Part shown: piece by piece, positions 48,451 through 61,483 of the stretch
Numbering within the stretch: position 1 is the first letter of the stretch
How the letters are laid out: the number at the start of each line of letters is the position of its first letter
DNA from: Desulfobacula sp.
Lineage (GTDB): Bacteria > Desulfobacterota > Desulfobacteria > Desulfobacterales > Desulfobacteraceae
Assembly: GCF_030611305.1 (NCBI RefSeq)
Contig: NZ_JAUWQB010000005.1
Span: 1 to 64,000, forward strand
DNA: 64,000 nucleotides
Direction: 5' to 3'
Translations under genes and position numbers: made by a program
Notes under the pieces: generated by a model
The model's database searches: none
What the model saw: the letters and a program-made list of their open reading frames with translations, nothing else
What the model was told of the DNA's origin: nothing

Positions 48451-48466
48451 TGGCACACGTTTTGCT
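48451..48466 (+). promoter_or_regulatory. Sigma-54 promoter of the YHS gene
   Basis: TGGCAC-ACGTT-TTGCT matches the -24/-12 consensus TGGCAC-N5-TTGCW in full, with GG and GC at the right spacing. The start codon lies 43 bases after the -12 element. Confidence 0.8.
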
Positions 48467-48508: not shown

Positions 48509-48769
48509 ATGAATCATTTACACGCAAATAAAAAATCAAACCATAAAGATCCTGTATGTGGAATGGATGTCTCCTCTGAAAATAATGCAATCACTGCTAC
48601 CTGGAACAATGAGATATATTATTTTTGTGCTGAGCACTGCCGCAAGGAATTTGAAAAATCACCTGAAGCTTATAAGAAAAAGAATTCTTTTTTTCTGACA
48701 AGATGGTGGAACAATTATCTTAAACGCCTGAACAAGGTTACCAACGGCAAACCCAAATGCTGTGGTTAA
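48509..48769 (+). CDS. YHS-domain metal-binding protein
   Basis: An 86-aa cytosolic protein. The YHS domain (about 12-58) has DPVCGMDV and YYFCAEHCRKEFEKSPEAY, with cysteines arranged as in heavy-metal-binding YHS domains found in copper transporters and metal-response loci. The tail is aromatic and basic (RWWNNYLKRL) and ends in CCG, possibly an extra metal site. It has a strong SD (AAAGGAG) and its own sigma-54 promoter with a palindromic operator. A metallochaperone or metal-buffer role is inferred. Confidence 0.85.
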   Translation: MNHLHANKKSNHKDPVCGMDVSSENNAITATWNNEIYYFCAEHCRKEFEKSPEAYKKKNSFFLTRWWNNYLKRLNKVTNGKPKCCG

Positions 48770-49800: not shown

Positions 49801-49853
49801 ATTATAATTTCCAGAGTTTGAGAGAAAAGTTAACCATAACAAAGGAGTTTAAA

Positions 49854-50345
49854 ATGAAAAAACTTACCACTAAAAAAACAATACTTATTGCATCAATTGT
49901 TCTTATCGCAGGGATTATCGCCTCACAGGCGGTTGCTTACATGGGCGGCGGATACCATATGGGAGGCGGGTATCATATGAGCCGCGGGTACGGTATGATG
50001 AACGGCAACCAGATGGGCTATGGCATGATGGGGAACGGTTACATGATGGAGAGCCTTTCTGCCGAAGACCAACAAAAAATGCTGGACCAGATGAACACCT
50101 TTTTTTCCTCCACCAGGGAAGTCAGGGAACAAAGTTATCAAAAACAACTTGAATTGAACAAGGAATATTTGAAATCAGAGAAGGATCAGGAAAAGATTGC
50201 GACCCTTCAAAAAGAATTGTTTGAACTTTCTTCCCAGTTTGAAAAAGAAAGATTTAATCACATGACTACCCTACAGAAATTGTTTTCCGATAAAAATAAC
50301 GGAAATTTCATTGGCATGGGCGGCGGATATGGCGGCGGCTGCTAA
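49854..50345 (+). CDS. ZraP/CpxP-like periplasmic metal-responsive protein
   Basis: A 163-aa protein starting at ATG 49854 behind AAAGGAGTTTAAA. A signal peptide (1-27, ending near SQAVA) is followed by a His/Met/Gly-rich stretch (MGGGYHMGGGYHMSRGYGMM), then a helical domain (about 65-140) of the Metal_resist/ZraP type (LSAEDQQKMLDQMN). A GGGYGGGC tail closes it. The methionine- and histidine-rich repeats suggest Cu, Ag or Zn binding. E. coli zraP is sigma-54/ZraR dependent, and this gene has a sigma-54-like promoter. Confidence 0.8.
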   Translation: MKKLTTKKTILIASIVLIAGIIASQAVAYMGGGYHMGGGYHMSRGYGMMNGNQMGYGMMGNGYMMESLSAEDQQKMLDQMNTFFSSTREVREQSYQKQLELNKEYLKSEKDQEKIATLQKELFELSSQFEKERFNHMTTLQKLFSDKNNGNFIGMGGGYGGGC

Positions 50346-50386: not shown

Positions 50387-50547
50387 ACAACTGTATAATT
50401 TTGATACATATGCCCAAAACAATTGTAGAATATTATACAAAATATAAATTTTTATAAATTTACAGATAAGATTAATACAAGTTTCAAATATAATATTTCT
50501 TTTGTTTACAGTAGATTAAACAAATTTCAGTCTGATTTTGACCAATC

Positions 50548-50563
50548 TGGTATCGTTCTTGCT
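50548..50563 (+). promoter_or_regulatory. Sigma-54-like promoter of the copper/heme operon
   Basis: TGGTAT-CGTTC-TTGCT carries GG at -24 and GC at -12 with correct spacing, 39 bases before the SHOCT gene. No copy of the palindromic operator is visible between 50387 and 50547. Confidence 0.6.
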
Positions 50564-50602: not shown

Positions 50603-50941
50603 ATGAGCACAAAAAGAATCATTTTTATTTCTGTATTGACGTTGGCCGGATTTGCAGGCGCATACTTTATCAGCATAAATACCAGTTTTTTGGAATCTTT
50701 TTTTTATAATGAATGGCGCTCCATGGGCCCGGGGTTTTATCATGGACACATGATGGGAGGAATTATGCATTTTGTTTTCTGGCTGGTCTTATTCTTTATT
50801 CTGATTTCAGCACTGGGTGGCAGGAAATCAACACCTGCACGCATCACGGACTCTGCCGTTGAAATCCTGAAGAAAAAATATGTCAACGGGGATATCGGCA
50901 AAGCTGAATTCAACGATAAAATGAATTATTTAAATCAATAA
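50603..50941 (+). CDS. SHOCT-domain membrane protein 1
   Basis: A 112-aa protein with two hydrophobic segments (about 6-26 and 52-70), separated by a Met/His-containing stretch (HGHMMGG). The C-terminal SHOCT motif is SAVEILKKKYVNGDIGKAEFNDKMNYL. An excellent SD (CAGGAGGTAAT) precedes the ATG. It heads the copper/heme gene group and resembles the second SHOCT protein at 57796. SHOCT domains are short oligomerisation modules; the specific role here is unknown. Confidence 0.75.
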   Translation: MSTKRIIFISVLTLAGFAGAYFISINTSFLESFFYNEWRSMGPGFYHGHMMGGIMHFVFWLVLFFILISALGGRKSTPARITDSAVEILKKKYVNGDIGKAEFNDKMNYLNQ

Positions 50942-50966
50942 CATTATCAGTCCAGGAGAACGAGCA

Positions 50967-51344
50967 ATGAAGGAAAAAACAGCTTTTAAATTCACCACTA
51001 TTTTCGCATTCCTTTTTATTGTGGCAGGAATGCTCTTTTTTAACCCCTTAACAGCCATGGCTTGCGGATATGGGAACTCCGGAGGCAGTGATTTTGTCCC
51101 CCAGAGACAGTCTCCTTCCTGGGGCAACCAGGCGCCAGGCAATCAGGCGCCAGCCGCCATAGGGCAGGAGCAGGCTAAAGATATCGTCAAAAGCCATGTC
51201 AGCAGGCTTAACCCGGATCTTGCAGTCGGCAACATCAATGACGCAGGTGGTTTTTTTGAGGTCGAGGTCATTAACAAATTCGATGAAGTGCTCCAGCTGG
51301 TAGGTGTAGACAAGTTTTCCGGACGTTTGATGCTGTTAAACTAA
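50967..51344 (+). CDS. Periplasmic PepSY-like protein
   Basis: A 125-aa protein with an N-terminal signal sequence (about 1-32). A Gly/Gln/Pro-rich linker contains CGYGNSGG and a tandem QAPGNQAP. A C-terminal PepSY-like domain (about 70-125) reads AKDIVKSHVSRLNPDLAVGNI, GGFFEVEVINKFDEVLQLVGVDKFSGRL. The family assignment is plausible, not certain. It has a strong SD (CAGGAGAACGAGC) and lies between the SHOCT and CuA genes. Confidence 0.6.
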   Translation: MKEKTAFKFTTIFAFLFIVAGMLFFNPLTAMACGYGNSGGSDFVPQRQSPSWGNQAPGNQAPAAIGQEQAKDIVKSHVSRLNPDLAVGNINDAGGFFEVEVINKFDEVLQLVGVDKFSGRLMLLN

Positions 51345-51362
51345 TAAAAAGAGACCTGGCCC

Positions 51363-51827
51363 ATGGATAACAGGAAAGCGGATTTCATATACTTTGCAAT
51401 GGTGATATTTGTTGTCATTGTGCTGCCTTTTGGCATATCAGCTTATGACAGACACATCTGGAGTCAGAAAATTCCACAGGATGCAAAAGTCTTTAACCTG
51501 ACCGGCCATACTCAGAAAGGGTGGGTCTCTGGCAGTATTGATGCCTCTGATGTTTTAACCGACAGCCTTATTCTTAAGGAATTTACACCTCCTGTGATTA
51601 GAGTAAACAAAGGGGACCGGGTGGTATTAAAGCTGACCAGCAGTGATGTGGTTCATGGATTCAGCCTTAAGGATTTCGGCATTTTTATCAATGACGGGAT
51701 TCACCCGGGCAAGCCCCAGACGGTTTCTTTTATTGCGGATAAGGAAGGCACTTTTACCTTTGCCTGCAATGCGATCTGCGGCAGCCATCACGAAAATATG
51801 CTTGGTACCATCATCGTCAATGCATAA
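51363..51827 (+). CDS. Membrane-anchored CuA-type cupredoxin (COX2/NosZ-like)
   Basis: The 154-aa protein has one N-terminal membrane helix (about 9-27) and a cupredoxin domain facing the periplasm. The CuA ligand set is complete: H98 in VVHGF, C135 and C139 in CNAICG, H143 and M146. This spacing is that of subunit II of heme-copper oxidases and of nitrous oxide reductase. No oxidase subunit I or nosZ is in the window, so it may work as an isolated electron carrier or belong to a partner elsewhere. It lies between the PepSY-like and cytochrome genes. Confidence 0.85.
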   Translation: MDNRKADFIYFAMVIFVVIVLPFGISAYDRHIWSQKIPQDAKVFNLTGHTQKGWVSGSIDASDVLTDSLILKEFTPPVIRVNKGDRVVLKLTSSDVVHGFSLKDFGIFINDGIHPGKPQTVSFIADKEGTFTFACNAICGSHHENMLGTIIVNA

Positions 51828-51931
51828 TATGTTGAAATTGCTTCGTCCTAATGATAGATTATGAGAACATGTAAAAAAATAATTTGCGAAAACTCATCTC
51901 AAAACCAAGATACTATTTTCCGGAGGCTGTT

Positions 51932-53617
51932 ATGAAAAAGACCATCTTTTTCACCAGTTTTATCAGTATTATAGCTGTAATTACTGCCGTTCAACTGATT
52001 ATGCCAATCACGGCACGGTCTTCCCAGAAAAAGATCACTTCCGTCATCAGGGGTGTGGTTGCCTCCCAGTATGGGATGGTCGCAGATGCCAGGGTCAGGA
52101 TCGCTGGAAGCAAAGATTTCACATTAACTGATGTCAATGGCCGGTTCACAGTTGAAGCCCCTTTATTCAGCAGCCGGACCATAAAAATTACAGCCGGCAA
52201 GGACGGGTGGTTCAATAATTCAGTTAATGCCCTGCCCGGAAACCAGAACGCCAATGTCATGCTTTTTCCTATACCGGCTAAAGACAATCCAAATTACAGG
52301 TTCATATCGCCGGCTGTTTGTGCCAGGTGCCACAATACCCTGGCAAAATACTGGGACAAATCCAAAATGGCCCACACCACATCCAATGTAAAGGTGCTGA
52401 ACATGTATAACGGCACCGATGCCACAGGCCGGGAACTTTCCGGTCCCGGGTACAAAATTGATAATCCGGGTAAGGACGGAAACTGTGTGTCCTGCCACGC
52501 CCCTTCGGCTGCGGTATCAAATGGTGGCGCCAAAGATATTGAAAAAGCTTTATGGTCTCCCAGAGCTGAATGGGATGGTATCAGTTGCGATTATTGCCAT
52601 AAAATTCGAAAGATCACCAAAACCAATAACACACCGAGCCTGTTTAAGTCCCACCTGAAGCGTCAAACCCCTTTAAAGGGCAACTCCATACTTGTGTTCG
52701 GCCCCTATGATGATGTGGTTAATACTGTCATGTCTGCGTCTTACAGCCCTGCTTTTGACAAAGGTAACTTTTGCGCGGCCTGCCACAGCCAGATCAAAAA
52801 ATCTGATAACAAGGATACCTGGAACAGAAAACAAGTTTACACGGATGCAGAATGGAAAAGCTTTGATATCGGCGATGATTCCGTCATCCCCGTCCAGACC
52901 ACCTACCAGGAATGGAAAACCTGGCAGAATTCCTTGCCTGCTGATGACAGCAACAAGGGCAAAAGATGCCAGGACTGCCACATGAGCTGGAGAAAGGAAA
53001 TGCTGCCCTATGACAATTATATCATTGACGGCCAGGCCAGGAACATGTGGGGGACAAAACGGGATCCCCAGAATATTCGACCCCATCATTTTGACGGCGG
53101 GACCCAGATACAATTGAAAACCGCTCTTTCAATGGAAATTGAAGGAGAGATTAATGGTAACATCCTTGATGTAAATGTCTTTATCACCAATACCAACGGC
53201 GGTCACTGGATTCCGACAGGAGACCCCATGAGAAACGTGATGATGGTCCTGTCTGCCACAGACTCGGACGGCAAGGTATTAAAGAAAATAAAAGGGGAAG
53301 AGCTGCCGACCTGGACAGGGATTGGGAAAATAGAAGACGGCAATTATGCGGGACTTCCCGGAAAAATGTTTTCAAAGGTGTTAAAAGACAAGAAGGGCAA
53401 TATCAATGTGCCTTTCTGGCAAGCCACAGAAGTGGCAGCTGATACCCGGATCAGACCCAAAACAACTATTAAATTAACGTATCAATTTAAAATTGAAAAT
53501 CCGGATGACGAACCCGTGGCAGAAGCAAAACTGATTTACAGACCTTTTATGAAATCTTTGGCTAAAGTTAAAAAATGGGAAAGTAACGATATTTTAATTA
53601 CGCAAACTGCCTGGTAA
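51932..53617 (+). CDS. Pentaheme cytochrome c (c554-like) with N-terminal carboxypeptidase-regulatory-like domain
   Basis: A 561-aa periplasmic protein from ATG 51932 (SD CGGAGGCTGTT). A signal peptide (1-29) is followed by a carboxypeptidase-regulatory-like beta domain (about 37-112). Five CXXCH heme sites follow: CARCH (130), CVSCH (185), CDYCH (219), CAACH (281) and CQDCH (346). After residue 360 comes a beta-rich C-terminal region with a VNVFITNTNGGHWIPTGDP motif. The heme part recalls cytochrome c554-type multiheme proteins. A role as electron carrier or reductase is inferred. Confidence 0.85.
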   Translation: MKKTIFFTSFISIIAVITAVQLIMPITARSSQKKITSVIRGVVASQYGMVADARVRIAGSKDFTLTDVNGRFTVEAPLFSSRTIKITAGKDGWFNNSVNALPGNQNANVMLFPIPAKDNPNYRFISPAVCARCHNTLAKYWDKSKMAHTTSNVKVLNMYNGTDATGRELSGPGYKIDNPGKDGNCVSCHAPSAAVSNGGAKDIEKALWSPRAEWDGISCDYCHKIRKITKTNNTPSLFKSHLKRQTPLKGNSILVFGPYDDVVNTVMSASYSPAFDKGNFCAACHSQIKKSDNKDTWNRKQVYTDAEWKSFDIGDDSVIPVQTTYQEWKTWQNSLPADDSNKGKRCQDCHMSWRKEMLPYDNYIIDGQARNMWGTKRDPQNIRPHHFDGGTQIQLKTALSMEIEGEINGNILDVNVFITNTNGGHWIPTGDPMRNVMMVLSATDSDGKVLKKIKGEELPTWTGIGKIEDGNYAGLPGKMFSKVLKDKKGNINVPFWQATEVAADTRIRPKTTIKLTYQFKIENPDDEPVAEAKLIYRPFMKSLAKVKKWESNDILITQTAW

Positions 53618-53633
53618 GAAAAGGAGAATTTAA

Positions 53634-54257
53634 TTGAACAGTAAACGAATTTTAATCTTTGGTTTGATTTTTCTGATGATGACAACCACCCATGCCTTTG
53701 CATCTGACCTGTTGTCCGGCAATGTTAAGGCGCAGGGGTTGAGAAAACAGGATAATATCCTGGTATATCTCACCAAAACACCGGATCAGACAACGCCTCC
53801 TCAAGAAGTGTTTGTTCTGGACCAGAACAACCTCACATTTCTGCCCCATATCCTGGTGATCCCGAAGGGTTCAACCGTGTCCTTTCCCAATAACGACAAG
53901 GTGGATCACAACGTATTTTCCCTTTCCAGAACAAAAAAATTTAATTTCGGCAGTTACAAACCAGGGGTTAGCCATAATGTCACCTTTGACAAACCAGGTA
54001 TTGTGGAACTCAGGTGTGATCTTCATTCCGAGATGATTTCCTATATCCTGGTCATGAAAAATTCCTATTTTGCTTTAACCGATAAAAAGGGCAACTTTAC
54101 CCTTGATGTGACAGGGCTTGCTCCAGGTAAGTATTTCCTTAAAACCTGGCACGAAAAACTTAAAAACAGCAAGATGGCGATTGATCTGGCGGTAGCTGCC
54201 GGTAAAAAGCTCACCATTAACCTGAAAAGAGGGGCACCAGGTGTGCTTTACAAATAA
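53634..54257 (+). CDS. Periplasmic cupredoxin, type-1 copper-like
   Basis: A 207-aa secreted protein starting with TTG 53634 (AAGGAG eight bases upstream). Signal peptide 1-24. The cupredoxin domain (about 65-145) reads VIPKGSTVSFPNNDKVDHNVFS and ELRCDLHSEM, giving His-Cys-His-Met ligands in a type-1 copper pattern. A beta domain (about 145-200; ALTDKKGNFTLDVTGLAPGKYFLKTWHEKL) resembles the carboxypeptidase-regulatory fold. It is related to methylamine-utilization-type plastocyanins. It may pass electrons between the pentaheme cytochrome and the CuA proteins. Confidence 0.8.
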   Translation: MNSKRILIFGLIFLMMTTTHAFASDLLSGNVKAQGLRKQDNILVYLTKTPDQTTPPQEVFVLDQNNLTFLPHILVIPKGSTVSFPNNDKVDHNVFSLSRTKKFNFGSYKPGVSHNVTFDKPGIVELRCDLHSEMISYILVMKNSYFALTDKKGNFTLDVTGLAPGKYFLKTWHEKLKNSKMAIDLAVAAGKKLTINLKRGAPGVLYK

Positions 54258-55001
54258 ATGATGACCATGGAGATATCAATGATCATGGCTCTGACTGCCG
54301 GGATCGTATCCTTTTTGTCTCCCTGTGTGCTCCCTCTGGTGCCCGGATATGTCTCTTTTATTTCCGGCGTATCCATCAACGAGATCATGGAGATGGAAGA
54401 TAGGCCCAGGCTGTTTGACAAGACCCAGATCTCTGTCATTTTCAATGCGCTTTTGTTTATTTCAGGTTTTTCCCTGGTATTTGTCGCTCTTGGGGCGTCG
54501 GCCACATGGATCGGTTCTTTTTTTAGTTCCAATCTTGGTGTGCTGACCAAAGTCTCAGGTCTGGTCATTATATTTTTCGGGTTGATCAAACTGAATATCA
54601 TCCGCATCAACTGGTTTTTTAAAGATATGAGATTTCATCTCAATACCCGGAAAAAAGGCGCTTTTTTTTCTTTAATTCTGGGCATGGCCTTTGCCTTTGG
54701 CTGGACCCCGTGTACAGGCCCGATTCTGGGTGCGATCCTCACCTATGCCGGAACCGTTGACCAGGCGGGTTCGGGAATCCGGCTATTATTGATTTATTCG
54801 GCCGGACTGGGCATCCCCTTTCTTTTGACAGCTATCTTTATTCAATATTTTTTCAAGGTTTTCAACCGAATTAAAAAGCATCTCTGGATCATTGACAAAG
54901 GCACCGGGTTGATATTGATTCTCATGGGAATTCTGATCTTTAACGATTCTTTTACTGCGATTACCGGCTGGTTCAGCATGTTTAACGCATTTACCCTATA
55001 A
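54258..55001 (+). CDS. ccdA: CcdA-type cytochrome c biogenesis protein
   Basis: A 247-aa polytopic protein with six predicted membrane helices. The redox cysteines are in LSPCVLPLVPGYVSFI (about 23) and FGWTPCTGPILGAIL (about 150), as in CcdA/DsbD. It transfers reductant from cytosolic thioredoxin to periplasmic thiols needed for heme attachment or copper-site assembly. The ATG abuts the upstream stop. It is followed by a TlpA-like partner, consistent with maturation of the cytochrome and CuA proteins of this locus. Confidence 0.92.
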   Translation: MMTMEISMIMALTAGIVSFLSPCVLPLVPGYVSFISGVSINEIMEMEDRPRLFDKTQISVIFNALLFISGFSLVFVALGASATWIGSFFSSNLGVLTKVSGLVIIFFGLIKLNIIRINWFFKDMRFHLNTRKKGAFFSLILGMAFAFGWTPCTGPILGAILTYAGTVDQAGSGIRLLLIYSAGLGIPFLLTAIFIQYFFKVFNRIKKHLWIIDKGTGLILILMGILIFNDSFTAITGWFSMFNAFTL

Positions 55002-55016
55002 CCCCTTGTCCTGATT

Positions 55017-55607
55017 ATGAAAAACAGCAACCCTGAGAATAAATGTTTTGCCATCCTTGCCCTCTGCTTTTTTGCTGTACTGTTTTTTTCCATTGATTAT
55101 GCATATCCGATTGATAAGGCTTATGCGGAAGATAATGTTCTGGATAAGAAGTTCAAATCTCTGGGAATCATCAAGCTTGCCGGGATCGCTCCCCCGGCAA
55201 GCCATGATCTTATGGACATAGACGGAAATCCGGCAAAGCTTTCAGATTTTCAGGGGAAAATTGTGTTTTTAAATTTCTGGACCACCTGGTGCCCGGACTG
55301 TGTGGATGAAATGCCGGATATTGAAAAACTGCATCAAAAAATAAAGAGCAAAGAGTTTATAATTATAGCCGTTGACCTGAAAGAATCTAAAAAAAAAGTA
55401 AAAAAATTTATTAAAAAACATACCCTGACCTATAAAATTCTTCTGGATAAAAAAGGCGATATGGGAAGAGTATTCGGGATACGCTCCATCCCCACGACCT
55501 TTATCCTGAACCGGCAGGGCGGGCTGATCGGCAAGGCCATGGGAGCCCGGAACTGGGACAGCAGAAAATCCCTTGATCTGTTTGAATATTTGTTGGAAAC
55601 CTATTAA
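55017..55607 (+). CDS. TlpA/ResA-like thioredoxin
   Basis: A 196-aa periplasmic thioredoxin-fold protein with an N-terminal anchor (about 10-27). The active-site FWTTWCPDCVDEMPDIEKL (CPDC) and a cis-Pro region SIPTTFILNRQG identify the family. Probably reduced by CcdA from the gene before it, and in turn reducing CXXCH apocytochromes or CuA cysteines. The start has no strong SD visible. Confidence 0.88.
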   Translation: MKNSNPENKCFAILALCFFAVLFFSIDYAYPIDKAYAEDNVLDKKFKSLGIIKLAGIAPPASHDLMDIDGNPAKLSDFQGKIVFLNFWTTWCPDCVDEMPDIEKLHQKIKSKEFIIIAVDLKESKKKVKKFIKKHTLTYKILLDKKGDMGRVFGIRSIPTTFILNRQGGLIGKAMGARNWDSRKSLDLFEYLLETY

Positions 55608-55633
55608 CAAAGATCTGCCTTAAGAGGACCTCA

Positions 55634-57565
55634 ATGATATCAAAAGCCATACGGATCATACTGATTATTTTTCTGTTTTTTGCAGCAATAGGTCTGCCGC
55701 GGTTTTTATCAAAGATACCCGGCGAAAACAAAACCCATATCATAGAACTTGTGGCAGGAAAATACGGGTATACTCCGGAACGGATTTTTGTCAACAAAGG
55801 CGACACCATTATTATCAAACCCACTTCCAAAGATGTGACCCACGGATTTCTTTTGGACGGTTATCCGGTTGAGTTCATCATCAAGCAGGGCGGTGTTGCA
55901 TACCAGAAATACGAATGGGAAGATGACGCGGGAAAGCTTCAAACAGACTGGGACAAAGTCACCGAGATTGAATTTACGGCAGACAAGCCGGGTAAATTTA
56001 TTTTTCGCTGTACCCAGGTTTGCGGAAACCTTCACCCCTTTATGACCGGAGAACTGATTGTGGCGCCCAACACACTGTATCATACCATGGTCTCTCTTTC
56101 CATCTGGGTGGTCATAAGCCTGTTTTTATGGTTTGGATCAGGGCGCAGGCCTTTACAAAAGAAAGAGAAAACCCTGAACCTGTTTGATATCATACCCGGA
56201 TTGAAATGGTTGGTGAAACGCAGAAGTTTCCAGTTTTTTCTGCTGTTCCCGGGATTTGTCATCTTTTATTTGTTTATTATTGCAAGTCTCAAAGGAAGTC
56301 CCGTGGGAAACCACAATATTGCCATTATCATTGTCTGGATTTTATGGTGGTTCCTTTTAAAATCAGTCTTTGTCCCCCTGGGAGGAAGGTTGTGGTGCAT
56401 GATATGCCCGCTGCCGGCACCTGCCGAGTGGATCAGCAGAAAAGCTTTTACCGCAGTACGATTCATCAAAAAGCCCATCAAAGGCAAGCATCACAAATAT
56501 ACGGGCCTTGGCCTTGACTGGCCCAAAAAATTAAGAAACATGTGGCTCCAGAACATCATCTTTCTTTTAATGATTTCCTTTGGCATTATCCTGATCACAA
56601 GACCTGTGGCAACAGCCATCATGTTCCTGCTCATTCTTGGAGCAACGCTTATCGTGGCCTTTATCTTCCGGAACCGGGTTTTCTGCCTCTATCTTTGCCC
56701 TGTGGGCGGATTTTTAGGAAATTATTCCATGGCCTCCATGACTGCTTTGCGGGTCATTGACAAGGATGTCTGCAAAAAACATAAAAACAAATGCTGCGTC
56801 AAAGGAAGTCCCGACGGATGGGGATGCCCATGGAATCAGTATCCCGGAACCATGGACCGGAACAATTACTGCGGACTTTGCACGGAATGCGTTAAAACCT
56901 GCCCGGAGGACAATGTTGGATTCTTTTTAAGACCCTTTGGTTCTGACAGGAGCGTTAAAGATTATTCAGAAATGTATAATATACTCATTATGCTGGTGGT
57001 GGCCATTGCATTCAGTATCACCATGTTGGGTCCCTGGGGATTTATCAAAGCGGCGGCTAATATTACAGAGTCCCGGGATATCTATTCTTTTCTGATTTAT
57101 ATTGGTGTTTTATACACCATGTCCCTATGTGTTTTTCCCGGGATATTCATCTTTTTTTCCAGAATGTCAGCCAGATTTGCCGGATACAAAGGAAATGTAA
57201 AACAGCTTGTTCTGCAACTTTCCTATATGCTGATCCCGGTGGGTATTTTTGCCTGGATTGCCTTCAGCCTGCCCTCCATCATGGTCAATTACTCCTATGT
57301 GCTCAATGTGCTGTCAGATCCCCTTGGGTATGGATGGGATATTTTCGGGACCGCCCATGTTCATTACAATCCCTTTTATCCTGAAATCATCCCTTTGATC
57401 CAGGGCCTTTTGCTTCTCACCGGGCTTTATTTCGGCATCAACAGGGTGAATCTATCCTTAACAGGAATAATTTTCGACTCGTTAAAAAGAAAGAAAGCCA
57501 TTTTGTTCCCCGCCCTTTTTGCCCTGGGCGTGGTCAATATCTTTTTAAAACTTTATCTGGGATAA
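55634..57565 (+). CDS. CuA cupredoxin fused to NosR/CcoG-like membrane ferredoxin
   Basis: A 643-aa membrane protein. After an N-terminal helix (about 5-22) comes a periplasmic CuA domain with H70, C126, C130, H134 and M137 (CTQVCGNLHPFM). A polytopic region follows with CMICPLPAPAEW (about 260), CLYLCPVGG (about 350) and CGLCTECVKTCP (about 417), typical of NapH/NosR/CcoG polyferredoxins. Further membrane helices form the C-terminus. Fusion of a CuA domain to such a membrane Fe-S unit is unusual. It may transfer electrons from the quinone pool to periplasmic copper centres. The SD AAGAGGACC precedes the ATG. Confidence 0.82.
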   Translation: MISKAIRIILIIFLFFAAIGLPRFLSKIPGENKTHIIELVAGKYGYTPERIFVNKGDTIIIKPTSKDVTHGFLLDGYPVEFIIKQGGVAYQKYEWEDDAGKLQTDWDKVTEIEFTADKPGKFIFRCTQVCGNLHPFMTGELIVAPNTLYHTMVSLSIWVVISLFLWFGSGRRPLQKKEKTLNLFDIIPGLKWLVKRRSFQFFLLFPGFVIFYLFIIASLKGSPVGNHNIAIIIVWILWWFLLKSVFVPLGGRLWCMICPLPAPAEWISRKAFTAVRFIKKPIKGKHHKYTGLGLDWPKKLRNMWLQNIIFLLMISFGIILITRPVATAIMFLLILGATLIVAFIFRNRVFCLYLCPVGGFLGNYSMASMTALRVIDKDVCKKHKNKCCVKGSPDGWGCPWNQYPGTMDRNNYCGLCTECVKTCPEDNVGFFLRPFGSDRSVKDYSEMYNILIMLVVAIAFSITMLGPWGFIKAAANITESRDIYSFLIYIGVLYTMSLCVFPGIFIFFSRMSARFAGYKGNVKQLVLQLSYMLIPVGIFAWIAFSLPSIMVNYSYVLNVLSDPLGYGWDIFGTAHVHYNPFYPEIIPLIQGLLLLTGLYFGINRVNLSLTGIIFDSLKRKKAILFPALFALGVVNIFLKLYLG

Positions 57566-57795: not shown

Positions 57796-58134
57796 ATGAA
57801 AATTAAAACAAGTTTATTCTCTGTATTATTATCCGCTTTTTTTCTGTTGCCTGCTCATGATGCGGCCTTTGCCGGATGGGGGGATAATAACTATGGATAT
57901 TACGGCGGCCATATGATGGGAGGAGCTGGATATATGGGATGGTTCATGATCCTTTTCTGGGGGCTGTTACTTATTTCATTGATTTTTATCATCCGCTGGA
58001 TTTCACATTTGTCTATGGGGAAAGAAGCAGGGCAGGGACCTGACAAAAAATCGCTGGACATTTTAAAAGAGCGCTTGGCCAAAGGAGAAATCGAAATTGA
58101 TGAGTACAGGGAAAAAAAACAATACCTTTCCTAA
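57796..58134 (+). CDS. SHOCT-domain membrane protein 2
   Basis: A 112-aa protein with an N-terminal signal-like segment (1-24), a Gly/Tyr/His/Met-containing stretch (GHMMGGAGYMG), one membrane helix (about 52-70) and a C-terminal SHOCT motif (SLDILKERLAKGEIEIDEYREKKQYL). It is close in layout and equal in length to the protein at 50603. It has its own sigma-54-like promoter and two operators, so it is expected to be coexpressed with the ZraP-like gene. Confidence 0.78.
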   Translation: MKIKTSLFSVLLSAFFLLPAHDAAFAGWGDNNYGYYGGHMMGGAGYMGWFMILFWGLLLISLIFIIRWISHLSMGKEAGQGPDKKSLDILKERLAKGEIEIDEYREKKQYLS

Positions 58135-58196: not shown

Positions 58197-58883
58197 TTAC
58201 CGAACAACCGCATAATGTTTTCTTGCCCAGTCAACAATACCACGTCTGAGATTGAGGATTTTGGTAAACTCTGAGTCAATTAGTATTTTTGAAGCAACCG
58301 TGCTCCTGTTTCCAGTTGCACAATAAATCAATATGTCATTATTTTTATGGGCATCCAATTCATTGACACGCCTCTGGAGTTCCTGGACCGGAATCAAAAT
58401 TGAATTTTCAAGATGTCCCATTGCATACTCCCGCCGAGTCCTGACATCAAGAATAAGAGGTTTGTCCGTCTTTATATAAGCATTCGCCTCTTTAGATGAC
58501 AAGGCCCTGTAATTTACCTGCTGATATTCGATTACAGTGATTTGCCCCTTGACAGAATCTATCTGGAAAGGATGAATGCCAGTCTGTTTCATTTTGAAGT
58601 ACGAAGTCGTTTCAAGGTCATGAGTGAGCTGTTTTTTTTCTTTCAGTGTCGGAAAAACAGCAGCCGATTCACCAAATTCTTTTGGCAGCCTGAATTTGAT
58701 ATAGTCACCGCGATATACTGTAAATTTTTGAATTTCTTTATTCATGTCGAGATTTAAAATACGGTATCCATCCTTGATTTCCCCTAATACCTTGCCTTCT
58801 GATGAATATGACAGTTCGATCAATAAAAAATTGATTGTAAAGACAGATAACAAAATAACCCAAGCCAGTTGTTTATGTTTCAT
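58197..58883 (-). CDS. Rhodanese-like envelope protein
   Basis: A 228-aa protein with an N-terminal signal sequence or anchor (about 8-26), a beta-rich middle region (about 35-120) that might be cupredoxin-like, and a C-terminal rhodanese domain. The domain has LILDVRTRREYAMGHLENSILIPVQELQRR and the active-site loop YCATGNRSTVAS with Cys. Rhodanese domains transfer sulfane sulfur. It is convergent with SHOCT gene 2 and its promoter lies on the integrase side. Whether it belongs to the sigma-54 system is unclear. Confidence 0.82.
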   Translation of the reverse strand: MKHKQLAWVILLSVFTINFLLIELSYSSEGKVLGEIKDGYRILNLDMNKEIQKFTVYRGDYIKFRLPKEFGESAAVFPTLKEKKQLTHDLETTSYFKMKQTGIHPFQIDSVKGQITVIEYQQVNYRALSSKEANAYIKTDKPLILDVRTRREYAMGHLENSILIPVQELQRRVNELDAHKNNDILIYCATGNRSTVASKILIDSEFTKILNLRRGIVDWARKHYAVVR

Positions 58884-59589
58884 TTTTTAAATTTATCCCT
58901 TGAAGTGTTGTCTTTATTTTGTGCTCTATTTATCCATAGAGCCATACCCGATATCCATTAAAGCAAAAAAAATGCCACCACAGGAGCAATTCATATTTAA
59001 ATATAAGTACTTGATAATAATAGAAACATTTTGGCGGAGACATAAAAGAATAAAATCACTGATTAATCCATTGTTAACCTATTATCAACCTGTTGTTAGC
59101 AGGGGATGTTGTGGTTAATATCTCTACCTAAACAAGCCTTGGCAAAATGGCACGCACGAACTTTTTATCTTCTCTTTTTATTGACCACTGCAAAATCTAA
59201 ACTTGAAATATGGCAGTCTACTCCTATATAGTTCATCTGGGTGTCTCCTTAGTAGAATTCTCAATAGATAATAAGAATTGTGATCTTGAACGAAGACCTG
59301 TCAGGGGTGGTTTCCCCAAAAGTCTGAAGGGGATGTGGGAAAGTTTTTTCTTGATTGTTTGTTCCAAAGATATCTTGTGTAGGTCTTGATTCAGAAAACC
59401 CGGGACTTTTAATTAGTGCTCATGTTTAAATCCGGCATTTGTCGGCAACAAAAAATAGATGGCCTGAGTTTTTGAAGCAAGGTTCTGATTAATCTCCAAC
59501 TTGACGTAACAAAATCATAATTGACCTTTGAATGGTCTTAGGCGATTATCTACTTGATATTTCTACAAAAAATAGAAATGGAGGTCGAT
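58884..59589. other. Intergenic stretch between rhodanese and recombinase genes
   Basis: About 700 bases with no firm gene. A reading frame at 58900-59118 ends in SRGCCG, faintly like the tail of the YHS protein at 48509, but has no SD. It may hold the rhodanese promoter and an end of the recombinase-bearing element. I see no direct or inverted repeat that I can trust. Confidence 0.35.
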
Positions 59590-60639
59590 ATGAACCCTGA
59601 TTTAATGTCTCACCAAACAAATTATGAATATGTTCCTTTTCGGGAAAATACTCGCTATCAAAATCAGACACCTTTTAAAAAACTTAAGGTTGATCATTAT
59701 CTAAGAATACTTGATGACACTGGCGTGCCGTCACCGATGCTTGAACATATATCAGAGTTTTTTCAGTCTTTAGTTAGACGTAATCTCAGCATGGGCTCTT
59801 TGGTACAATATTTTCATGCTCTGAAAAGATTTTTCTTATTTTTCAAATCATTGGGTATATGCAGGCTTGAATTCGTCGATAGAGAACATTTAGGTGCATT
59901 CATCGAATATTTGCAAGACGACAATTTGATGTCATCTTCTATTAATGGGTACTTAAGAAGCTTATATGCGATTTTTGGATTTCTGGCAGAAAAAAATGTG
60001 ATCAGCTCAGATATAATGAAAAACAAATTTAGATTAAAAATGCCGGATATACATCCCAAAGCGATTGATCCGGACGATATCAAGCTTTTTCTATCTGTTA
60101 TAAATACTGTCAGGGAACGTGCATTAATCCTGGTTCTTTTAAGAACGGGCATGAGGATAGGAGAATTACTGGGAACAAAAATCATAGATATTAACTTTCA
60201 AGAAAGAAAAATTGAGATTCCCCAGGCTTATAAAAATTATGAGGGTCGAATAGTGTACATGGGTGATGATGCTTGTTCTGCTTTAAAGAACTGGTTGAAA
60301 GAAAGGTTACCTGGTAGGGAATACATCTTTTACGGCAAAGGGAACCGTGAAAAGCTATCGTATGCCATGGCCAGAGTTCTGTTTATTAAACATATGCAAA
60401 AAGCAGGGTTATCTCACAAAGGATATACGTTGCATTGTCTGAGGCACACATATGCCAGTGAATTGCTAAATGCTGGAATGCGGCTCGAATGCCTACAAGT
60501 TCTCTTAGGACATCAGGATATTGAAATGACAAGGCGTTATGCCAGGCTGACGGACAATACCAGAAAAAACGAGTATTTCAAAGCAATGGAAATAATTGAA
60601 AGGGGAGAAATTGATGGACATTACCGATTCGATAATTAA
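59590..60639 (+). CDS. Tyrosine recombinase 1
   Basis: A 349-aa site-specific recombinase from ATG 59590, preceded by GGAGGTCGAT. An N-terminal SAM-like core-binding domain (about 55-150) is followed by the catalytic domain with RTGMRIGELL, HCLRHTYASELL and LGHQDIEMTRRYARL, giving the R, H-x-x-R, H and Tyr set. It overlaps a second recombinase by 26 bases, so the two are translationally linked. Similar tandem recombinases occur in Tn554-type and RIT-type elements. Confidence 0.88.
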   Translation: MNPDLMSHQTNYEYVPFRENTRYQNQTPFKKLKVDHYLRILDDTGVPSPMLEHISEFFQSLVRRNLSMGSLVQYFHALKRFFLFFKSLGICRLEFVDREHLGAFIEYLQDDNLMSSSINGYLRSLYAIFGFLAEKNVISSDIMKNKFRLKMPDIHPKAIDPDDIKLFLSVINTVRERALILVLLRTGMRIGELLGTKIIDINFQERKIEIPQAYKNYEGRIVYMGDDACSALKNWLKERLPGREYIFYGKGNREKLSYAMARVLFIKHMQKAGLSHKGYTLHCLRHTYASELLNAGMRLECLQVLLGHQDIEMTRRYARLTDNTRKNEYFKAMEIIERGEIDGHYRFDN

Positions 60640-61483
60640 TTATAGGCGCTTTTTAAAGAGAAAGAACTGCGCCAAAGGAACAATTAAAAATTACATGAAT
60701 TCTCTGAAAAACTTTGCCATTTGGATTGACCTTCCAATAGAAGAGGTGACCAATCAGCATATACAAGCGTATATAGATTGCCTTTTGGATAAGAGACTTA
60801 GACCAAAGACAATCAATAATAATCTGGATAGCATACGGGGTTTTTACAATTATCTTCAAAATGAAGAAAAAGCTGTTAACAGCAATCCGGTTAAAAAAGG
60901 TTATTGTTTGCGTTTAGGCAGGCCTTTACCAAAGCACCTGAGAGATGAGCAAGTTCAAGAAATTTTCCAATTCATTAACTCCATTCGGGATCGGGCTATT
61001 TTTATGTTGATGCTGCGTTGTGGATTAAGAGTGGAAGAAGTCGCTGATCTTACCTTAAGTGCGATTGATTTGAAAAGAGGTCAGATTTTAATATTCAAAG
61101 GAAAAGGGGCAAAAGGACGTATCGTTTATTTCAGCAAAGATACGTATGATGCGCTTGTAGCCTATATAAAAAGAAGAAAACCTTTAAGAACTCAAGGGCT
61201 TTTTCTTGTTGAAAAAGGGACATGCAAAGGGAAAGAAATCTCAGTTCGGGGCATTCAAAAGCGTATTGAGTACTACTCAAAAAAAAGCGGGATAAAAGTA
61301 TCCTGTCATTATTTACGGCATACGATGGCAACACAATTATTAAATGCAGGTGCAGATCTTGAGATAATACAGGACCTGCTGGGACATAGCAAAATTACAA
61401 CTACTCAGCGATATTGCAAAGTATCGAATTTAAGGGTTCAACGAGATTACCACAAGGCAATGGAATATGTGCTCCAAAGATAA
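60614..61483 (+). CDS. Tyrosine recombinase 2
   Basis: A 290-aa recombinase from ATG 60614 (SD GGGGAG six bases upstream). The N-terminal SAM-like domain (about 5-90) is followed by the catalytic part with RCGLRVEEVADL, a K-containing GKGAKGRIVYF hairpin, HYLRHTMATQLL and LGHSKITTTQRYCKV. All active residues are present. Its length is close to XerC/XerD. It starts within the 3' end of recombinase 1. Confidence 0.88.
   Translation: MDITDSIINYRRFLKRKNCAKGTIKNYMNSLKNFAIWIDLPIEEVTNQHIQAYIDCLLDKRLRPKTINNNLDSIRGFYNYLQNEEKAVNSNPVKKGYCLRLGRPLPKHLRDEQVQEIFQFINSIRDRAIFMLMLRCGLRVEEVADLTLSAIDLKRGQILIFKGKGAKGRIVYFSKDTYDALVAYIKRRKPLRTQGLFLVEKGTCKGKEISVRGIQKRIEYYSKKSGIKVSCHYLRHTMATQLLNAGADLEIIQDLLGHSKITTTQRYCKVSNLRVQRDYHKAMEYVLQR

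Follow-up and report, generated by a model that had tools for sequence, protein, structure and literature searches.

Membrane iron-sulfur proteins of the NapH type feed periplasmic enzymes, as in the NosGH/NapGH relay to clade II NosZ. NosG and NosH are said, in work attributed to Hein et al. in 2017, to be part of an electron transport module in Wolinella. Pentaheme cytochromes (PHC) have also been described: ExtKL, Gsu2801 and cytochromes of cable bacteria are presented as one PHC family in the consulted part of PMC11976967. Here we analyze a 64,000-nucleotide stretch of a Desulfobacula sp. genome (the window; contig NZ_JAUWQB010000005.1, positions 1 to 64,000), in which a row of eight genes at 50603-57565 encodes a PHC together with copper proteins and a NapH-like membrane protein fused to a CuA domain. 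The host genome is 97.4% complete, and the nearest named locus belongs to Candidatus Desulfobacula maris (93% identity over the NapH part of the fusion). Our preferred interpretation, to which we give slightly less than an even chance, is that a copper-regulated and copper-dependent chain delivers electrons to the PHC, which is a candidate for reducing an oxidant of high potential.

The gene row and its conservation

The eight open reading frames lie on the + strand with intergenic gaps of 0-56 bp; the gap before the PHC gene is 104 bp if the ATG at codon 17 is the start. An inventory made earlier from the letters alone (the sequence-only reading) had listed the same genes, and all eight are present as a tight row. 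Its labels stand for the membrane-anchored CuA cupredoxin (51363..51827; Pfam COX2, 2.6e-9), the PHC (51884..53617; five CXXCH motifs, Cytochrome_C554 above cut-off), the type-1-copper cupredoxin (53634..54257; Copper-bind, 6.9e-5, above cut-off, with a weak match to a regulatory-like domain at the C-terminus), CcdA with its DsbD-like membrane domain (54258..55001; DsbD_TM, 2.3e-11) and a TlpA/ResA-like thioredoxin carrying a WCPDC motif (55017..55607; AhpC-TSA, 7.4e-26). They also stand for the last gene, which encodes a 643-aa fusion of a CuA domain to a NapH-like membrane polyferredoxin (55634..57565), with a Fer4_5 match barely above and a Cupredoxin_1 match below the cut-off. The labels of the first two genes fared less well. 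The small membrane protein at 50603..50941 resembles SHOCT proteins weakly (PF09851, 14.1 bits against a cut-off of 27), and the secreted PepSY-like protein (50967..51344) has zero family matches in a Pfam and NCBIfam profile search at E 0.1.

The CuA protein ligands H98, C135, C139, H143 and M146 are invariant in 22 of 22 aligned rows, window included, as are those of the cupredoxin (H92, C128, H131 and M134) in 19 of 19. In the fusion, the CuA ligands and 11 further cysteines are invariant in all 31 aligned rows. The pattern H...CxxxCxxxHxxM is present throughout both alignments (22/22 for the CuA protein, 31/31 for the fusion). The same 31 fusion rows retain the NapH/NosH-type cysteines C255, C258, C351, C355, C413, C416, C419 and C423; we take CxxCP, CxxxCP and CxxCxxCxxxCP to be the membrane cysteine motifs of NapH/NosH. 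The fusion scores 24 bits against the curated NapH profile and does not reach its cut-off of 213. A search for a NapG/NosG partner gave zero NapG matches among the open reading frames scanned with Pfam and NCBIfam profiles.

The profile of heme-copper oxidase subunit I (PF00115) has no match in the host genome (G000), and the matches of the NosZ profile are confined to the pair of CuA domains in the row (56 and 20 bits, cut-off 625). Probing the window with oxidase, NO-reductase and NosZ sequences detected nothing beyond those CuA domains. These genome searches agree with the earlier statement that the locus lacks both subunit I and a nitrous oxide reductase, and the profile scans support its description as carriers and assembly factors without a classical end enzyme. 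A remnant of a heme-copper oxidase or nos cluster was considered and rejected, given the absent PF00115, the absent full NosZ and the empty window probes. Within the genus, PF00115 matches are present in 14 of 26 genomes, and we found no clear link between COX1 and the operon (COX1 in 5 of the 7 genomes with it and in 9 of the 19 without it).

A scan of the genome collection with an alignment of the fusion yielded 111 tblastn-confirmed relatives from several phyla, 80 of which were analyzed. The 35 nearest of these 80 loci (identity of at least 54%), all recorded as metagenome-assembled or uncultured genomes, constitute the close set and the other 45 the distant set. In 25 of the 35 close loci, hereafter the PHC loci, the genes for PHC, cupredoxin, sometimes CcdA, sometimes TlpA, and the CuA-NapH fusion follow in the same order on one strand. 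Gene order was counted from tblastn matches on the strand of the fusion, and the count of the core order was repeated without this filter. Scattering of the genes in relatives, which the sequence-only reading had named as an outcome that would speak against it, is not seen: these 25 loci keep them together. CcdA is found in 11 of the 25, TlpA between cupredoxin and fusion in 16, a relative of the PepSY-like protein upstream of PHC in 18, and the upstream CuA gene likewise in 18. CuA is not assessable in six PHC loci, whose contigs start within or close to PHC or are broken by Ns. In L050, CuA and the cupredoxin are both mere fragments, so the operon may be decaying in that genome.

The PHC itself recurs at 57% identity or more in 7 of 57 other genomes (6 of the 25 of the same genus, and one of another family in the order). 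In 6 of the 35 close loci, a triheme membrane cytochrome and a b561 protein replace PHC and cupredoxin; an octaheme cytochrome is seen in four of these six, while the contigs of the other two start too late. The octaheme, triheme and b561 variant lies at L066:2309-5153 and in L061, L065 and L104, and one of its carriers is Candidatus Desulfatibia vada. Of the remaining close loci, three are cut off and L069 holds only CuA and the fusion.

Distances among homologs of the four core proteins are correlated (Mantel r of 0.80-0.92 when every shared row is used, 0.72-0.86 for rows from outside the genus). In a tree of the NapH domain, octaheme-type relays fall into a group of nine (support 93/81) nested inside the PHC type; the label here also took in L057 and L069, where the partner genes are not seen. 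The nesting suggests that partners were swapped around a constant relay. The CuA-NapH module thus appears to be a relay across the membrane whose partners can be exchanged, and in which the PHC would occupy the position of a terminal reductase.

Sigma-54 motifs and copper-resistance surroundings

A perfect match to TGGYAYN5TTGCW, which we take to be the sigma-54 consensus, is located 39 bp before the first gene of the row (TGGTATCGTTCTTGCT, 50548..50563, + strand). It was revealed by a scan of the upstream region for FNR, CueR, CsoR, NsrR and Fur consensus motifs, which gave nothing convincing for these regulators. Two further perfect matches are found at 48451..48466 (+), 42 bp before a YHS gene (48509-48769; YHS domain above the Pfam cut-off), and at 58962..58977 (-), 78 bp before a rhodanese gene (58197-58883, -; Rhodanese, 5.8e-16). 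Three perfect sites in 64 kb compare with 0.35 expected, and 1 of 100 shuffles reaches three. Six operons of the genus share the upstream element TGGTATnGTTCTTGCT, with 15 of 16 bases identical, and the motif was not found upstream of the seventh (L046).

We surveyed perfect sites in the 25 PHC loci plus L048 (386 kb; 6 of these 26 loci come from one genus) and in 40 evenly spaced 20-kb control stretches from three related genomes (G007, G034 and G044). These were taken as genomes without the operon because their PHC matches are weak (27-30% identity, G007 and G034) or absent (G044). The loci contain 30 sites, compared with 12 in 800 kb of controls (p 3.5e-7); outside the genus, 20 sites in 273 kb remain (p 1.1e-5). 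A perfect site precedes the row in 9 of the 16 loci with a readable upstream region. Matches at 10 of 11 positions lie no more than 400 bp before the row in L050, L062, L063 and L072 (shuffle p 0.01-0.05), L070 has a 9-of-11 match and L051 none. Another 10 of the 30 sites precede genes for CopA (L041), a TolC-family protein heading a Cus-like cluster (L044), YHS (L041, L049, L055, L103), ZraP (L050, L055), SHOCT (L050) or a multicopper oxidase (L072). Three sites stand before a TlpA/NapH paralogue group and eight before other or no recognized genes. Upstream sequence is available for four octaheme-type loci, and a perfect site lies close ahead of the row in just one of them, L104. The occurrence of the motif before both the row and copper genes suggests a sigma-54 copper regulon, and the operon appears to be controlled jointly with copper-resistance genes.

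A candidate activator site, the near-palindrome TTGTAGAATATTATACAA (50423..50440, +), lies about 107 bp before the sigma-54 motif. It has 0 mismatches, against a chance expectation of 1.34 matches in the window at up to three mismatches. It recurs with one place A or G at nearly the same distance in L041, L042 and L030, and was not found upstream in L043, L045 and L046. L041 and L042 are flanked by genes for a ZraS-like kinase and a sigma-54 response regulator; in L043 the contig ends with a gene for the regulator but not the kinase. The regulator best matches AtoC, followed by ZraR, with all kinase and regulator matches below family cut-offs. The sensor domain of the kinase contains Met/His-rich stretches. 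In the host genome such a pair is encoded on another contig, with a regulator that is 90% identical. Distantly related regulators flank several distant modules, yet also occur in the controls.

Metal-handling genes were probed with YHS, SHOCT, ZraP, CopA, CusA/B/C, PCYCGC, FtrD-like and HMA proteins. At least one probe matches at 16 of the 25 PHC loci and in none of the 40 control stretches. The CopA, Cus, FtrD-like, HMA and PCYCGC probes were taken from test or distant loci, and the YHS and second SHOCT probes from the window. Since probes came from tested loci, L044 and L063 count only through themselves, leaving 14 of 25 without both self-hits. Matches are also present at one of the six octaheme-type loci and 15 of the 45 distant loci. 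YHS is found in 10 PHC loci and the second SHOCT protein in 7. The ATPase of the islands passes the cut-off for copper-translocating P-type ATPases. The adaptor has CusB as its closest match, at a score below that family's cut-off, and L072 has a CueO-like multicopper oxidase upstream (305 bits, cut-off 525).

In the window, the row is preceded by a gene for a ZraP/Metal_resist-like periplasmic protein (49818..50345, +; PF13801, 1.1e-9, above cut-off). It is followed by the second SHOCT-type small membrane protein (57796..58134, +; PF09851, 7.9e-5, 22.7 bits, short of the cut-off of 27), which is 29% similar to the first protein of the row over 85 residues. The N-terminal half of the rhodanese resembles a cupredoxin, as judged by eye only. 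Two tandem genes for recombinases of the phage-integrase family (59554-61483) lie directly after the island, a possible mark of mobility. At the left end, positions 69-138 match an Rfam group II intron (48.7 bits). In other genomes, another NapH-like protein, at about 29% to the fusion and with an N-terminus that is not CuA, is encoded with TlpA-like and PCYCGC-motif proteins at L042:1608-4730, L041:4417-6045 (in pieces) and L029:309-3357. In L041 and L042 this group points away from the main operon and has its own sigma-54 motif.

Electron flow and competing explanations

The PHC comprises an N-terminal carboxypeptidase-regulatory/transthyretin-like domain (weak Pfam match), five CXXCH motifs that are invariant in 21 of 21 aligned rows, and a C-terminal beta-rich domain that matches the end of 5ze8, the pentaheme cytochrome c552 of Thermochromatium tepidum. 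This structure is the sole convincing solved relative (profile 4.5e-13; sequence 6.3e-10) and also the top fold match of the AlphaFold2 (AF2) model, though the model is poor. Beyond the motif histidines, the alignment contains exactly three invariant His (164, 401, 441) and four invariant Met (162, 283, 367, 388). Three such histidines for five hemes leave at least two hemes without an invariant distal His, and these may be either five-coordinate or His/Met-ligated. A reading of heme coordination from the AF2 model was dropped because of its mean predicted local distance difference test (pLDDT) score of 57. Among NCBIfam profiles the best match is ExtKL (NF040886; 3.7e-12, 45.5 bits, below the cut-off of 250), and a Pfam scan of the PHC gave zero matches to truncated hemoglobin. 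ExtKL-like paralogues of about 450 aa turned up in the genome searches. In the consulted part of PMC11976967, the cable-bacteria PHC is listed as potentially catalytic because five-coordinate hemes are predicted, and the idea is cited that PHC members fused to truncated hemoglobin reduce O2. The suggestion of the sequence-only reading that the PHC could be the catalyst thus gains indirect support from its potentially catalytic relatives and from its NosZ-like place described below.

The 45 distant loci come from Acidobacteriota, Planctomycetota, Chloroflexota and other groups. In many of them two adjacent genes encode CuA and NapH separately, followed by a further CuA protein that often carries one or two CXXCH motifs. 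In two of the 45, L089 and L091 (Acidobacteriota), the gene immediately after the CuA-NapH-CuA set is clade II nosZ. In L089 the contig start truncates the first CuA; the L089 NosZ scores 873 bits (cut-off 625), and the genes downstream encode NosD, an ABC ATPase and a cupredoxin with 37% identity to that of the window. The NosZ of the genus genome G003 shares about 55% identity with those of L089 and L091. In the nos cluster of G003, genes for a NapH-family protein (265 bits, cut-off 213) and a NapG-like protein are found some 8 kb ahead of nosZ. Other relays adjoin molybdenum enzymes (L068, L071, L083, L097) or a 12-heme cytochrome (L099). Arsenite-oxidase-type molybdenum enzymes also lie near Planctomycetota CuA-NapH modules (L088, L090, L095), accompanied by a Rieske_3 domain (Pfam in L088 and L090, similarity in L095). 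L095 encodes a multicopper-oxidase/di-heme peroxidase protein, and L090 a similar one. Four oxidase and NO-reductase probes, applied to all 80 loci, detected subunit I in L077 only (about 7 kb off) and NO reductase in one locus, L113, on the other strand. A lactonase-type NosZ was rejected as a candidate: none of six beta-propeller- or copper-oxidase-like neighbors scanned reached the cut-off of that family. The multicopper-oxidase-like proteins of L072 and L104 and the propeller-oxidase fusion of L120 all score below oxidase cut-offs.

CuA and type-1 copper carriers have high potentials, and the chain is therefore sensible mainly if an oxidant of high potential finally receives its electrons. 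Outward flow is suggested by the distant relay that adjoins NosZ, and together these points place the PHC at the end of the chain as a reductase. In the proposed mechanism, menaquinol or a cytoplasmic donor would reduce the iron-sulfur clusters in the NapH-like part of the fusion, and the fused CuA domain would accept the electron on the outer side of the membrane. The separate CuA protein and the type-1 cupredoxin would then hand it to the PHC. With the PHC as terminal reductase, the electron would end on a small oxidant of high potential, for example O2, peroxide or an N-oxide. The role of CcdA and TlpA may be to hold the CuA and heme cysteines reduced during assembly. Transcription would depend on sigma-54 with an activator of the NtrC type, for which a ZraSR-like two-component system responding to copper is plausible, so that the PHC chain would be expressed together with copper efflux genes when copper is available. 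A fuller version would make the system a respiratory or protective reductase that lacks any classical catalytic subunit: a quinol-linked NapH-CuA relay of uncultured Desulfobacterota drives a PHC that itself reduces O2 or another high-potential oxidant under copper induction via sigma-54, and its kin serve NosZ and other enzymes in other phyla. This version is doubtful as a whole.

Several observations weigh against the proposed reductase chain. The co-varying distances are also expected under vertical descent. The NosZ link comprises two loci at 44-45% identity, and the nosZ frame of L091 is broken by one in-frame stop. The NapG/NapH-type pair of the genus lies about 8 kb from nosZ, so that the positions are not strictly equivalent. 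The AF2 model of the PHC (mean pLDDT 57) is poor in the heme domain, and the four invariant Met could be distal heme ligands. T. tepidum c552, the only solved relative, is titled low-potential and would therefore fit poorly behind CuA. A ZraSR-like pair is found beside only two of six genus loci, with matches below cut-offs. Finally, a copper regulon would fit detoxification at least as well.

Redox detoxification of copper is the main rival, and we regard it as rather unlikely. Here, the cupredoxin and PHC would oxidize Cu(I) to the less toxic Cu(II) without O2, or reduce Cu(II) for export, with CuA-NapH taking up or supplying the electrons. CueO cannot work without O2, and CopA and CusCBA move Cu(I). 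The metal-handling genes at 16 of 25 PHC loci (14 without self-hits), absent from the 40 controls, are consistent with this, as is the distribution of perfect sigma-54 sites, 9 of 30 marking the operon and 10 preceding copper-type genes. However, the distant relays adjoin NosZ and molybdenum enzymes, five of six octaheme-type loci lack the probed metal genes, and the copper genes may just supply cofactor. Moreover, oxidation of Cu(I) with menaquinone as acceptor would be uphill.

Two further explanations assign the PHC a different role. It is improbable, in our view, that the row serves cuproprotein maturation, with CuA-NapH, the PepSY-like protein, CcdA and TlpA loading or reducing copper centers and the PHC as an accessory carrier. 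CcoG-type polyferredoxins and TlpA do load or reduce such centers, and CcdA and TlpA are present in 11 and 16 of the 25 PHC loci. Yet both are often absent where PHC, cupredoxin and CuA-NapH remain, and a further cuproenzyme was not noticed in the row. An NCBIfam scan of the fusion at E 0.1 gave no CcoG model, from a library that presumably contains one. In its favor, open articles mention CcoG, polyferredoxin and cupric reductase, or two of these, together. A conduit to or from the cell surface, with the PHC akin to ExtKL and to cable-bacteria cytochromes proposed for extracellular transfer, is very improbable. It would account for ExtKL being the best NCBIfam match, which nevertheless falls short of the cut-off (45.5 of 250 bits). 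Such conduits do not typically contain CuA or type-1 copper, and inspection of the row by eye showed no gene for an outer-membrane porin. The consulted part of PMC11976967 does group the PHC family with ExtKL and nanowire-like cytochromes.

Comparison with known systems

Both NapH-type relays and PHC belong to known families; the combination of the two with CuA and a putative sigma-54 copper regulon was not met in the literature searched, and a CuA-NapH-PHC operon is not described in the titles and abstract openings of the open-licence PMC articles covered. The sigma-54 motifs, the copper-resistance surroundings and the NosZ-linked relatives go beyond the sequence-only reading. If the proposed chain is correct, CuA-NapH relays would be a widespread plug-in electron supply for varied periplasmic enzymes and, in some Acidobacteriota, may serve N2O reductase. 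For Desulfobacterota, it would mean that the relay links the PHC to copper, which gives the family of c552, ExtKL and cable-bacteria PHC a testable role.

Like NosGH/NapGH, the locus encodes a NapH-like membrane iron-sulfur protein that may feed a periplasmic enzyme. Unlike that system, CuA is fused to the NapH part, a NapG/NosG gene was not noticed and NosZ is missing; the fusion also scores 24 bits as NapH, while the NosH-like protein of the genus reaches 265 (cut-off 213). The five CXXCH motifs followed by a beta domain are shared with the PHC family (T. tepidum c552, 5ze8; ExtKL; Gsu2801; cable-bacteria PHC), whereas the extra N-terminal regulatory-like domain and the encoding with CuA and a cupredoxin set the window PHC apart. 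The CuA domain, with its full ligand set, resembles subunit II of heme-copper oxidases, but a subunit I match is found neither in the window nor in the genome. This suggests that coxB calls in genomes of this sort need not signify an oxidase.

In the FtrABCD ferrous iron uptake system, FtrD is an iron-sulfur protein. There, a periplasmic cupredoxin is likewise encoded with more membrane components, according to the consulted part of PMC11966278; the window row has CuA and type-1 sites instead of those of FtrB. No Ftr1-type permease was noticed by eye in the row, and no permease-specific search was run. The islands resemble ZraSR/ZraP, Cue and Cus systems in their sigma-54 motifs, their ZraS/ZraR-like pair and their ZraP-, CopA-, CusBA- and CueO-like genes. 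They differ in that several of these matches lie below equivalog cut-offs and in that the presumed regulon includes a copper/heme electron chain.

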